Origin: Stenotrophomonas ginsengisoli
GTDB taxonomy: Bacteria; Pseudomonadota; Gammaproteobacteria; Xanthomonadales; Xanthomonadaceae
Direction: 5' to 3'
NCBI RefSeq assembly: GCF_001431485.1
Contig: NZ_LDJM01000003.1
Coordinates: 1-64,000, forward strand
DNA length: 64,000 nt
Below are positions 45,547 to 50,032 of this stretch, piece after piece. The notes beneath the pieces are model-generated. The model worked only from the letters and a program-made list of their open reading frames with translations. It was not told the DNA's origin and searched no databases. The position numbers and the translations under genes are program-made. Numbering within the stretch: the stretch's first letter is position 1; each line of letters starts with the position of its first letter.

Positions 45547-46559
45547 GCCGTTGCACCTTGATGGGTGAAGTGTGTATCAAAAACGGTGCCGCCGGCGCCA
45601 GCAAGCGCGCGCACCAGGTCGACCCGGTGTGCCGGGTCGCAGAGGAACATCATGAAACCGCCGCCCCCCGCGCCCGACACCTTGGTCGCGCGCGCGCCGT
45701 GACGCATTGCCAGCGCTTCGATCTCATCGATCATCGGGTTGGAAATACTGCTGGCACTGAGCTTCTTCGCTTCCCAGCCGGACTGCATCACCTGCGCCAG
45801 CCGCTCGAAATCACCGCGCAGCAGCGCTTCCTTCATCTGGCTGGCTTCGACCTTCAACCGATGCATCGCATCGAGCGAACTGGCCTTGCCTTCCTTGATG
45901 TTGCGCGACTGCTCATCGATGATCTTGGCCGATGCGCGCGACACCCCGGTGAAATACAGCACCAGGCCTGCCTCGAGCTCAGACCAGATCCAGTCCTTGA
46001 TCCGCAGCGGGTTCACGATGACGCGATCGGCGTCGTAGAACTCCATGAAGTTGAAGCCGCCAAATGCCGCCGCATACTGATCCTGCTTGCCGCCGGACAA
46101 CTGCAGGTCGACGCGCTCGATGCGGTAAGCCAGCTGCGCAATCTCGTACTCGCCCAGCGGCAACGCGAAGTATTCGGCGAAGGCGGTGACCAGGGCGACG
46201 ACCATCGTCGAGGACGAGCCCAAGCCGGAGCCCGGCGGCGCATCGGAATGGGCACGGATGCGGATGGCAGGACGTTCGCCCTGCAGGAAGTCATTGCAGA
46301 CACGCAGGTAGACGCCCTTCATCAATTGCAGCGGGCCGGGGCCGGCCTCCACGGCCTGCGGCTCAACGCGCTCGCAGACGCCCGCATCGTGTGCATGGAA
46401 TTCCACCAGGCCGTCAGGCGAAACATCAAGGGTCGCGTAGGCAAACTTGTCGATGGTCACGTTCATGACGAAGCCACCAAACTGATCGCAAAACGGCGAG
46501 ACGTCGGTGCCGCCTCCTGCCAATCCCAAGCGCAGCGGGGCGCGTGAACGAACGATCAT
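45531..46559 (-). CDS. hddA: D-glycero-alpha-D-manno-heptose 7-phosphate kinase
   Basis: 342 aa GHMP kinase. N-terminal [19 protein letters not shown] (about 4-22), the GHMP ATP loop [17 protein letters not shown] (about 108-124), and the C-terminal [13 protein letters not shown] motif. HddA phosphorylates C1 of heptose-7-phosphate in the alpha (GDP) branch, as opposed to HldE of the ADP-heptose core pathway. Overlaps the big glycosyltransferase gene by four bases. Confidence 0.92.
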
Positions 46560-49500
46560 GCTTTCTTCTCTATGGCAAATGCGGATTCCAATGCGCGTCC
46601 GAGCGCATCACGCGAGAACTGTTGACGACAGTAGTTGGCTGCAGAGCGGGAACGCTGCAGCCACAGCGCGTCATCTTCCAGCAAGGACAACAAGCCCGCG
46701 GCAAGGTGGTCGGCCCCGTCGGCCACCGTGGCCACCGCGTCAAGGCCAATGAGACCCTGCGCGCCCACGCCGGTGGTGACCAGCGGGAGACCCTGCTGCA
46801 TCGCTTCGACAACCTTGCCCTTGACGCCGGCGCCGTATCGCAGCGGCACGATGGCCACGCGCGCGGTACCGTAGCGCTGGGCCAGCTCCTCGTCACTGAC
46901 GAAACCGGTCACCTCGACATGGTCGTCAGCCAGCGCACGAATGGCTTCAGTCGGATTGGAACCGACCAGCGACAGCTTCACGCCGGGGTGGCGCGCCCAG
47001 ACCTGCGGCATCACGGACTCGACCAACCACTTCGCGGCGTCGACGTTCGGGCCGTGGGCGAAACCGGCAACGAACAGGATGCCGGCACGTTGCGTCGGCA
47101 CGGCGGCGTCGTTGAAGTGGTCAAAGGCATACGGCAGGATCGCGCGCGCATCGACAGACGGCTCCAGTACGTAAACGTCCTGCGCCTCCTCGGCCGATGG
47201 ATAGAGCACGCGGTCGACGGCCTTCCAGATGCGCCTTTCCAGCATCTCCATGGAACGCGCATCACCATCGCTGCCACCGTTACGCTGCGCTTCCATGTCC
47301 ATGCGACGGAAATGCAGGTCGTGGCCGTAGTAGACGGTACGCACACCCGGATGTTTCTGCAGAGCATCAATGTAGTGCTCGGCAATATGCGGGCGCGACA
47401 GCATCACCGTGCGCACGTGCGGATTCTCCTGCAGGTACCGGGCAAAGCCCCCAACCCACTGGCCGCCGTACATCACTTCCACGCCACGGGCCTGCAGCGG
47501 CGGGGTGTAGATCGGATCGAAGTACAGGTTGTCGGCCCAGAACTTGACCACACAGCCACGGGCCAGCAGCGCATCGATGAAGGCGACCATGGTCCGAGAG
47601 CCGGCATCGCGATCGGGCTGCGGCACGTAGTGGTCGACGATCAGCACCGTTTCCTTCTGCCAGGCACGGTCCCGCGCCAGCACCACGTGTTCGCCGTTGG
47701 GTTCGTGCCGTGCCAGTTCATCCTGCCAGCGTTCGCACAGCTTCTTCTGGTTGGCGACCTGGTAGGCCTTGATGCCGCTGCCGGTATCGGTGCCGTGGGA
47801 GATGCCCTCGTAGTGCACGACTTCCGACGTCGGGCAGTAATAGAGCTGGTAACCCGCCTTGCGAACGCGGAACGCAAGATCGGAATCCTCGCAGTAGGCC
47901 GGCACGAACGCGGGATCGAAGCCACCCAGCTCACGCAGAAGCGAGCTGGGAATTAGCAGGCTGGCGCCACTGCAGTAGTCCACCGGGCGCAGGTAGTTGT
48001 ACTGGCTGTCGGCCGGGTTATCCAGGCGACCGTAGTTCCAGGCCGAGCCATCACGCCAGATGATGCCACCGGCTTCCTGCAGGCGGCCATCGGGATAGAC
48101 CAGCTTGGAACCGACCATGCCGCAGTCGGGCATGCGCTGGAACACATCCAGCATCTGGTCCATCCAGCCCGGGCGCACTTCGGTGTCGTTGTTGAGGAAA
48201 TAGGTGTAGCGGCCGCGGGCCAGTTCCAGCGCCTGGTTGCAGGACAGAAGGAAGCCAAGGTTCTGGGGGTTGTGGTGGAAGCGCAGTCCAGGCACCAGCA
48301 CCAGCTTCTCGATCTCGGGATCGCCAGAGGCATCCTCCAGCACCAGTACTTCATAGCTCACTGCCGGCGGATGCGCGGCGATCGAGCACAGGCAGGCCAG
48401 GGTATGCGGCAGGTTGCCGTAGGTGGGTATGACGATGCTGACTTCCGGCGATTCATGCACCGGGAAGGACAGGGTCTTCAGCACTTCGTCGGTATCTTCC
48501 ACCACCGACTGCAGTGCAAGGCCGGCAGACGGTTCGACCTGGCCCTTGTCATGGCGCAGCAGCCAGCTACGCACCGGGCGCGCCAGCGGCGCCAGCAACG
48601 AATGGCGGGCCAGGCCGCTGGCACGCAACGAAGCGATGATGGCCGGCACGTCGCCACGCAGCAGGCGCGAAGCGAAACGCATCGGGCGGGTGATGCGCCA
48701 GGATTTGGAGGCGAGCACCTGGGCGAACGCTTCGTTCAGGCTTTCCAGCTGTTCGTCGTATTGGCGGATGACCTGCTGTACGGCCAACTCAGACGTGTGT
48801 TCCTGACCGGGCAGGACCGCGAGGCCAAAGCGCCGTTGCAGATCACGGCTAACTTCCGATCGACCGGCAACGGCCTCATGGGCCGTATGCAGAATGCGTC
48901 GCAGTTCGGCCGCTTCGTGATCCGCTGCTTCCCGATGGCGCTGCAAGTCAGCTTCAATGCCCGCCTTGTCGCTCTGCGAGCGCTCCAGCTGCGCCTGCAA
49001 TTGCTCCAGCTGCGCCTGCGATTGCTCCAGCTGCGCCTGCGATTGCTCCAGCTGCGCCTGCAGCGCATCGTTGCGTGCACGCAGGTCGGCAGCAACGCCA
49101 TGGCCGCCGCTGGTCTGGACGATCCGGTCCAGCTCCTGCGCCCAGCGCGTGCGTTCTTCGAACTCACCTTCCAGGCGGCGGTAATCGTTGCGGGACTTCT
49201 TCAAGTCCGATTCGAGCGAGCGCGCCCAACGAACTACATCCTCACGTTCTTTGTCCAGTCCTTGCGCCCAGCGGGCGATTTCATACTGCTGCGCGTACAG
49301 ATCCTCATCCTCGGCGTAAAGCACAGAGGCAGGTGTTTCCGGCAACAACGATGCGTCGGCTGCAGCGACAGCCACAAAATAGACCACATCGGGGACGCTG
49401 GCGACGCGCCCCTCGACACCCGATCCGGTATCGGTCAGTGCCTGGTAGCTGCCTGTGCGCTCCACCTGCGACAGCGGCGTGATTGTCGAGCACACGGCCA

Positions 49501-50032
49501 TACGATGACCACACAAGCGGAATGCCGGGAAATGACGCCCGATCAATGAGAGGAACTCGGCCTGATACAGCTCCTTCACATGGAAGTCGTTGTGGTAGCC
49601 GGCTCGATCAGAATAGACCTCCTTGTTCGGCGAGGACATAACCAGCACGCCGTCGGGCCGCAGCACACGACGGATCTCGGCCATCATTTCCTCCTGCTCC
49701 ATCAGATGCTCGATGGTCTCGAAGGACACAACAACATCAACACAGTCGTCGGGCAAGGGAATGGCAGCAGCTGAACCCTGCATGTAAGTCAGGTTGGACA
49801 GCGCTGCGTACCGCGAAGCTGCATGATCCACCGCCTCCTGAGAAATATCCACGCCACACACCGAGCGCGCGCGGGAAGCAAGCATCGCGCTACCATAGCC
49901 TTCACCGCTGGCTACATCCAGCACATCCTTGCCTTGCACCATCGATAAGCACCACGCATAGCGGTGCAGGTGCTCCTGCCTGATCACGCCGTGCTCGGTC
50001 GGCACGAAACGCTCACCGGTAAACTCAATCAT
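46556..50032 (-). CDS. Four-part fusion: methyltransferase, coiled coil, GT2 and GT4 glycosyltransferases
   Basis: 1158 aa from the ATG at 50032. Residues 1-190 are a class I SAM methyltransferase ([15 protein letters not shown] start; SAM loop [12 protein letters not shown] 37-48; FETIEHL at 104-110). Residues about 241-440 are charged and helical, with heptads [21 protein letters not shown] at 325-345. Residues about 530-760 are a GT2 domain ([30 protein letters not shown] at 614-623; [13 protein letters not shown]). Residues about 795-1158 are a GT4 domain ([57 protein letters not shown]). Cytosolic or membrane-associated, presumably extending and perhaps capping the glycan exported by Wzm/Wzt. 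Overlaps wzt and hddA by four bases each. The role of each domain is inferred. Confidence 0.88.
48982..49062. repeat. 21-bp tandem repeat (about 3.9 copies) inside the coiled coil
   Basis: Unit GCTCCAGCTGCGCCTGCGAT plus T, at 48982, 49003, 49024 and 49045. The first copy differs by one base and the last is partial. Each unit encodes exactly one heptad (QAQLEQS type), so gain or loss of a unit keeps the frame and lengthens or shortens the coiled coil by one heptad. Confidence 0.9.

Follow-up and report, generated by a model that had tools for sequence, protein, structure and literature searches.

The DNA analysed here (the window) is a stretch of 64,000 nucleotides from Stenotrophomonas ginsengisoli (NCBI RefSeq assembly GCF_001431485.1, contig NZ_LDJM01000003.1, positions 1 to 64,000). 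Its minus strand carries a long fusion gene (46556..50032) for a protein of 1158 aa that joins a methyltransferase (MT), a predicted coiled coil and two glycosyltransferase (GT) domains, GT2 and GT4, in that order, as identified from the open reading frame (ORF), Pfam matches and homologues. It is probably a one-chain enzyme of O-antigen assembly, as argued below. An ORF check found a single gene of 1158 codons plus stop, open throughout, and the plus strand of the same interval is interrupted by stops. The wzt stop and the start of the fusion gene share a 4-base ATGA overlap (GCAATGATT), and a second 4-base ATGA overlap links the fusion-gene stop to the hddA start (GCATGATC). An earlier note on this DNA had described an uninterrupted 1158-codon gene translationally coupled to wzt, and both descriptions hold. 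The fusion gene is not a product of chance, since 6982 of the 7996 scored candidates match its protein at E <= 0.001.

The gene lies in the metB-etfA O-antigen locus, the interval in which the lipopolysaccharide (LPS) locus of xanthomonads is reported to sit (PMC2238763). Read from metB, the order is wzm, wzt, the fusion gene, hddA, gmhA, hddC, gmhB and, accompanied by a transposase remnant, a broken MT23-like gene; next come a sulfatase-fold gene and integrase-core pieces, and then etfAB. On the same strand as the fusion gene, wzm (51377..52171) encodes the membrane subunit of an ATP-binding cassette (ABC) transporter and wzt (50029..51402) its ATPase, which carries a Wzt_C sugar-binding domain (residues 308-444; 122.7 bits, Pfam cut-off 30.4). 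This is the sole Wzt_C (PF14524) match in the 3.37-Mb genome (99 contigs), in which PF00953 and PF04932 were each matched twice. Among the frames scanned between metB and etfA, the fusion gene is the only glycosyltransferase gene. The protein is matched at E <= 1e-200 in 12 of 91 Stenotrophomonas genomes, and in seven of these, the window's own included, the match covers it from residue 1.

Domains and predicted fold

The N-terminal domain (residues 1-241; 49310..50032) is a class I S-adenosylmethionine (SAM) methyltransferase by both Pfam (Methyltransf_11 at residues 38-132; 81.6 bits, cut-off 21.2) and fold comparison, and is the predicted chain terminator. The C-terminal half holds the two parts of a predicted polymerase: a GT2 domain of GT-A fold (residues 529-793; 47654..48448), with a Glycos_transf_2 match at residues 532-652 (53.7 bits, cut-off 23.3), and a GT4 domain of GT-B fold (residues 794-1158; 46559..47653), with a Glyco_trans_1_4 match at residues 985-1120 (84.3 bits, cut-off 27). 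In an alignment of 77 sequences, the SAM-motif residues D39, G43 and G45, the GT2 residues N614-T617, E715 and D716, and the GT4 residues K1071, K1073 and E1076 are all invariant. Pfam, fold and conserved motifs thus agree with the SAM methyltransferase and the two GT domains that had been proposed from the sequence alone.

Between these ends, the AlphaFold model places one long helix at residues 245-307 (49112..49300), a second at residues 313-401 (48830..49096), and a third at residues 414-441, which is followed by a conserved element and short helices at residues 442-512 (together 48497..48793). The latter part may have a membrane-facing role. The model breaks the helix at about residues 308 and 402, with predicted local distance difference test (pLDDT) scores below 50 at residues 305-314 and 402-419, and a single continuous rod was rejected on account of these two low-confidence breaks. 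Of the coiled coil of about 200 residues in the earlier note, the extended helices over residues ~245-441 stand and the continuity does not: the segment is modelled as long and helical rather than as one rod. Its heptad pattern and its relatives suggest a coiled coil and not separate helices. The methyltransferase fold ends at about residue 228 and the helical segment begins at residue 245, so that by Pfam and AlphaFold there is no room for a kinase; a kinase, and with it a relationship to WbdD, was rejected for this reason. WbdD, WbbB and WsaF were absent from 39 PDB sequence matches and from the 50 fold matches listed per search, lists that were filled by single GT or MT domains.

Possible exchange of the N-terminal module

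The family was sampled through two GT-half patterns, and the best 80 of 244 confirmed loci together with the window gave 81 loci, many of which share the same GT half and differ in their N-termini. Terminator classes were assigned in 75 of them, leaving out L034, L049, L073 and three short fragments. MT11 was found in 45 loci, a sulfotransferase-like module in 15, MT12 with an unannotated domain in five, DUF4915 in four and MT24 in one; the remaining five ('other') have two GT2-like modules among them, and this class includes L039 (wrong start) and L065 and L070 (contig ends). Protein P0021, with an MT24 terminator, is 90% identical to the query over 78% of its length. On the GT-half tree, terminator class changes 22 times when 'other' is counted, and 17 times in 70 rows when it is not, against a mean of 23.3 after shuffling. 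Terminator class is therefore clustered on the tree, yet often changed.

One pair of loci looks like a recent natural swap. From the SRSWR motif after the coiled coil, L013 and L032 are 98.5% identical in DNA over 10.6 kb, and their protein identity, clearly lower at first, becomes almost complete at about residue 493 of L013 and stays so across the GTs and the heptose cassette. On the metB side the flanks share 86% identity; wzm, the terminator, the coiled coil and the greater part of wzt are more divergent or do not align. These comparisons suggest that a capping half and a building half have been exchanged between bacteria as separate modules. In a fuller model, to which we give slightly less than even odds, the coiled coil would be the joint between a capping half (terminator and Wzt C-terminal domain) and a building half (GT2-GT4 and sugar-nucleotide genes); the two would be swapped independently by nearby recombination, including caps with no known counterpart in characterised systems (sulfotransferase-like and DUF4915 modules), and length would be tuned by gain and loss of 21-bp heptads.

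The sulfotransferase-like module precedes the same coiled coil and GT pair in L031, L036, L041, L047, L058, L064 and others. Only one of six sequences of this class reaches the Sulfotransfer_3 cut-off (L047, 27.0 bits), with four below it and L031 giving no match; the L058 module had no PDB match, and a firm sulfotransferase label was therefore rejected in favour of 'sulfotransferase-like'. DUF4915 occupies the terminator position in L046, L069, L075 and L084, by Pfam match in L069 and L084 and by similarity in the others, and a GT2-like module occupies it in the Variovorax loci L059 and L067. For the MT12 class, about 300 residues after the methyltransferase have no Pfam match (two sequences scanned), methyltransferases were the only matches in a PDB profile search, and an AlphaFold model (five sequences, mean pLDDT 64.7) gave a methyltransferase match over residues ~30-329; an O7-like assignment was dropped, the likeness being one of layout only. 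Neither sulfotransferase nor DUF4915 modules fused to the GT half were found in the titles, abstracts and available passages of the open-licence literature.

Co-variation of the terminator and the Wzt C-terminal domain

Terminators were compared with the C-terminal domain of the neighbouring Wzt in 50 of the 81 loci (31 were left out for want of an upstream same-strand wzt within 1.5 kb, for truncation or, in L074, for mispairing). Similarity of the terminator correlates with similarity of the Wzt C-domain (r 0.90), also with the GT half and the Wzt ATPase domain held constant (partial r 0.83, permutation p 0.0005), and the correlation of the terminator with the GT half is -0.02. Leaving out L053 gives a partial r of 0.94, and restricting the set to the 37 MT11 loci gives 0.68. 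All ten Wzt proteins scanned match PF14524 (L047 and L054 below cut-off), which makes the Wzt C-domain classes divergent subfamilies within a single fold family.

L053 has an MT24 methyltransferase and an MT11-like Wzt C-domain, and its neighbours on the GT tree carry MT11. A search for MT24 returned 28 of 297 genomes, among them that of L053; 27 regions were taken, 25 of them with a full wzt. In 24 of these 25 loci the Wzt C-domain is MT11-like (similarity 0.27-0.89, with at most 0.14 to other classes). MT24 is a gene of 349-722 aa in 23 of the 25 and lies 170-1255 bp from wzt in 20; in one of the two fused-size frames (L137, 1603 aa), three GT-half motifs were looked for and were not present. 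As MT24 genes pair with MT11-like C-domains in 24 of 25 loci, this Wzt class would be common to two methyltransferase families, and in the simplest reading both families make a cap that is read by one Wzt C-domain class.

Wzt_C and the terminator are DNA neighbours, which makes linkage a confounder that can explain part or all of their co-variation. The two could co-vary only through linkage and joint transfer, with no reading of the cap by Wzt. Consistent with this, the block that differs between L013 and L032 starts at about wzm, takes in the terminator and reaches the coiled-coil/GT region, and all 25 MT24 genes lie within 1.3 kb of wzt. L053, with its MT11-bearing neighbours, and the 24 MT24 loci, most of separate-gene size (23 of 25), pair MT24 with MT11-like C-domains, which argues for more than linkage alone, and we regard the linkage-only account as unlikely, though still to be reckoned with.

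A broader sample took 70 Wzt_C matches from 119 family genomes, of which 68 were analysed and two had no usable ORF. An MT11 (eight loci) or MT24 (seven loci) module lies within 4.5 kb of 15 of the 18 MT11-like C-domains, compared with 4 of the 50 others (p 6e-9), at a threshold of 0.22 that was set after the MT24 values were known. The MT11-like class is not the family default (18 of 68).

Several of these comparisons weigh against Wzt as a reader of the cap. Among the 13 non-MT11 loci the partial r is just 0.21 (p 0.045), and within the MT11 loci the terminator correlates weakly with the GT half (0.20). L121 is the one MT24 locus of 25 with an unlike Wzt. Of the 15 positives in the broader sample, 12 came from earlier sets (all seven MT24 loci and five of the eight MT11 loci, including the window); without the reused loci, the contrast falls to 3 of 6 versus 4 of 50 (p 0.02). 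With a looser threshold, 15 of 19 module-bearing loci are positive versus 22 of 49 without a module (p 0.015). The weak correlation outside MT11 and the drop without reused loci are likewise what favours linkage.

Three loci (L210, L211 and L213) have an MT11-like Wzt C-domain, and no MT11 or MT24 module was found within 4.5 kb of it. In L196, the gene after a wzt of another class is FkbM-like by eye and is possibly another terminator.

Putative heptose cassette and neighbouring genes

Immediately after the fusion gene, and on the same strand, lie genes of a putative hdd cassette. The first, sharing the 4-base overlap, is an hddA-like D-glycero-D-manno-heptose 7-phosphate kinase gene (45531..46559; NF049969, 397 bits, below the cut-off of 600). 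It is followed by a gmhA-like SIS-domain isomerase (44956..45546), an hddC-like nucleotidyltransferase (44256..44954) and a gmhB-like HAD phosphatase (43660..44259), named from their position in the cassette and having the expected Pfam domains and order.

Presence of a cassette was scored only if hddA and hddC were both found, and L035, where hddA was the only one of the two, was scored as lacking it. By this measure, the cassette stands directly after the GT half in 47 of the 70 loci scored. It changes nine times on the GT-half tree, against a shuffled mean of 19.4, and accompanies MT11, sulfotransferase-like, MT12 and DUF4915 terminators, with no association between cassette and MT11 versus other terminators (Fisher p 0.45). 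The donor for at least one residue is probably GDP-D-glycero-D-manno-heptose; the cassette was rejected as proof of it, because the terminator tree and the GT tree account equally well for its distribution in 40 MT11 loci (six changes each), which makes a heptose donor probable and not shown. No heptose O-antigen in Stenotrophomonas was found in the titles, abstracts and available passages of the open-licence literature.

The two GT domains could alternatively make an adapter or side branch, with the true polymerase encoded elsewhere. The genome contains a second GT2-GT4 protein (G000:C34:70510-72411), 37% identical to the GT half over residues 521-1152 and without a match to the methyltransferase part, which is a candidate for that role. 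In addition, no adapter GT was seen in the locus, and some GTs must therefore lie elsewhere. The absence of any other GT among the frames scanned between metB and etfA, and the position of the heptose cassette directly after the GT half in most loci, speak for a polymerase in the fusion protein, and we consider the adapter account quite improbable.

Beyond the cassette, an MT-like gene with a weak Methyltransf_23 match (41896-43641) is cut short, and a DDE_Tnp_1 transposase remnant (23.8 bits, cut-off 23) lies after it at 42188-42547. At the far end of the locus, 39283-41616 encodes a 777-residue protein with a sulfatase-fold domain, which we take to be a possible phosphoethanolamine or phosphoglycerol transferase. 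Elsewhere in the window, a 386-residue open frame (57773-58933) has no Pfam or NCBIfam match at E <= 0.001.

Length of the coiled coil

Between fixed anchors, the coiled coil spans 195 residues in the window protein. In its cluster (single linkage at 86% GT identity, window included; 15 non-redundant sequences), the spans are 167, 174 (eight sequences), 181, 188 (two), 195 and 202 (two), that is, six lengths in exact 7-residue steps, all in one class modulo 7. In the other clusters, the share of sequences in one class modulo 7 is 9 of 13, 5 of 6 (MT24), 3 of 4, 4 of 4 and 2 of 3; three 3-sequence clusters fall fully into one class, with all lengths equal in one of them. Family-wide, 143 of 197 sequences had both anchors and gave 51 nearest-neighbour pairs. 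Spans are equal in 26, several of which are the same protein twice, and unequal in 25; 13 of these 25 differences are multiples of 7, compared with about 3.6 expected (p 1e-5 against 1/7), and 12 are not. The excess is absent at 60-70% identity among all pairs.

The DNA has a matching period. A 21-bp (7-residue) tandem repeat lies within the window's coiled coil (48982..49062, minus strand; 3.9 copies, 96% matches). Tandem arrays were tabulated over 75 genes; three genes lacking the anchor were skipped, and rows that overlap may refer to a single array. Within the 400 codons preceding the SWR motif, the period is a multiple of 21 bp in 36 of 41 rows, and 26 of the 75 genes carry at least one such array there; elsewhere in those genes this holds for 1 of 8 rows. 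The variation in span amounts to a register-keeping change of length, which fits a tunable ruler without proving one.

An alternative role for the coiled coil would be only that of a spacer for oligomerisation or membrane docking. In that case, enzyme stoichiometry or the rate of export would determine chain length, and chains of any length would be capped by the methyltransferase. The two low-confidence breaks in the AlphaFold helix suit a spacer and count against a ruler, and heptad steps are expected of any coiled coil that stays in register. However, insertions and truncations in WbdD, whose coiled coil sets length, are reported to shift modal chain length (PMC5082667), and in characterised systems the terminator is described at the far end of the coiled coil (PMC11231755), as it is here. 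Among 127 non-redundant sequences, moreover, the span is as short as 85 and as long as 624 residues, unlike that of a fixed structural spacer. On balance, a spacer seems unlikely.

Proposed mode of action

We favour a one-chain O-antigen assembly enzyme, in which polymerase, coiled-coil ruler and methyl-cap terminator form one polypeptide, and put its probability at roughly 0.65. The earlier note had proposed a terminator, ruler and polymerase in one chain. That proposal gains from computed features, namely domain order, folds, motifs, the locus with its coupling to an adjacent wzt, co-variation of terminator and Wzt C-domain, cassette clustering and heptad steps; it falls short of proof, as the evidence is one of comparison. 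The catalytic activities, cap, donor sugar, ruler action and cap recognition are what we infer from these features.

In the proposed mechanism, GT2 and GT4 would alternately extend a lipid-linked glycan at the membrane, with GDP-D-glycero-D-manno-heptose as the probable donor for at least one residue. The coiled coil would hold the methyltransferase at a distance from both membrane and polymerase, so that only chains long enough to reach this domain would be O-methylated at their free end. Methylation would halt growth and mark the end for recognition by the Wzt C-terminal domain, which would then admit the capped chain to the Wzm/Wzt exporter. Besides the breaks in the helix and the linkage discussed above, the equal fit of the cassette to both trees within MT11 loci weighs against this mechanism, as does the literature, in the available passages of which no glycan structure of this organism was found.

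The methyltransferase might instead decorate in-chain sugars or a precursor. Its matches are generic and do not define a substrate, and the second MT-like gene of the locus lies beside transposase remains, both of which leave room for decoration. Other predicted cap-type modules occupy the position of the methyltransferase in the same frame, and the class of the Wzt C-domain follows that position, which makes decoration improbable.

If the one-chain reading is correct, a single gene and the genes around it would hold separate parts from which the cap, the length and the sugar of an O-antigen could be predicted one by one. The exact 7-residue ladder among close orthologues lends itself to testing the ruler model, and pairs like L013 and L032, in which nearly the same polymerase is combined with another terminator and exporter end, amount to natural experiments on how the cap is recognised. 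Any new class of terminator would add to the caps already known.

Comparison with known systems

The earlier note held the layout to be uncharacterised, a claim that must be withdrawn: WbbB, O7 ORF6 and WsaE are experimental precedents (PMC11231755, PMC2943079), the first two being characterised versions on one chain or nearly one chain. Klebsiella O7 ORF6 is described as methyltransferase-kinase-carbohydrate-binding module (CBM)-coiled coil-GT2-GT2, and both terminates and polymerises (PMC11231755). It resembles the window protein in its N-terminal methyltransferase, central coiled coil, two C-terminal GT modules and a locus with wzm and wzt. It differs in having a kinase and a CBM-like domain, a methylphosphate cap and a GT2+GT2 pair (PMC11231755), whereas here residues 1-241 hold a methyltransferase alone, with no kinase between it and the coiled coil, and the pair is GT2+GT4.

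WbbB (Klebsiella O12/Raoultella terrigena) likewise combines terminator, coiled-coil ruler and two polymerase GTs in one chain (PMC11231755). Its cap, unlike the one predicted here, is a beta-linked 3-deoxy-D-manno-oct-2-ulosonic acid (beta-Kdo) added by a GT module, and its three GT modules founded GT99, GT102 and GT103 (PMC11231755); the window protein has a SAM methyltransferase in place of the GT99 beta-Kdo terminator. With WbbB and O7 ORF6 it shares the arrangement of terminator and polymerase GTs at opposite ends of the coiled coil, as judged from the Pfam order and the AlphaFold monomer with its two breaks, and a locus with a Wzm/Wzt exporter that has a C-terminal carbohydrate-binding domain. 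In WbdD (E. coli O9a), a methyltransferase also stands at the end of a coiled-coil ruler; a kinase is present, GT domains are absent and the polymerase, WbdA, is separate (PMC5082667, PMC3482155), whereas the window protein fuses two GTs and has no room for a kinase. Neither a heptad ladder of lengths nor modular exchange was found in the available literature passages on the characterised systems.

WsaE (Geobacillus stearothermophilus) is trifunctional, with a capping 2-O-methyltransferase joined to two rhamnosyltransferase domains, and its gene overlaps wzt (PMC2943079). The window protein has the same order, methyltransferase N-terminal to two GTs, a likeness drawn from the published description of WsaE (PMC2943079). 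WsaE differs in that it assembles an S-layer glycan with rhamnose, and the available passages mention no coiled coil (PMC2943079). Xanthomonas LPS loci occupy the same metB-etfA niche and contain wzm, wzt, ORF3, ORF4 and ORF5 with homologues in the Geobacillus cluster; ORF3 and ORF4 match parts of AAR99608 (PMC2238763), which is presumably WsaE. There, unlike here, the two parts are separate ORFs, which the authors read as a possible frameshift (PMC2238763). In 26 of 28 family genomes with a match, MT24 modules lie in frames of 350-840 codons; because these are too short for two added GT domains, they suggest that a natural split form of the MT and GT parts exists. From all three experimental precedents, the window protein is set apart by its kinase-free methyltransferase together with its GT2+GT4 pair.

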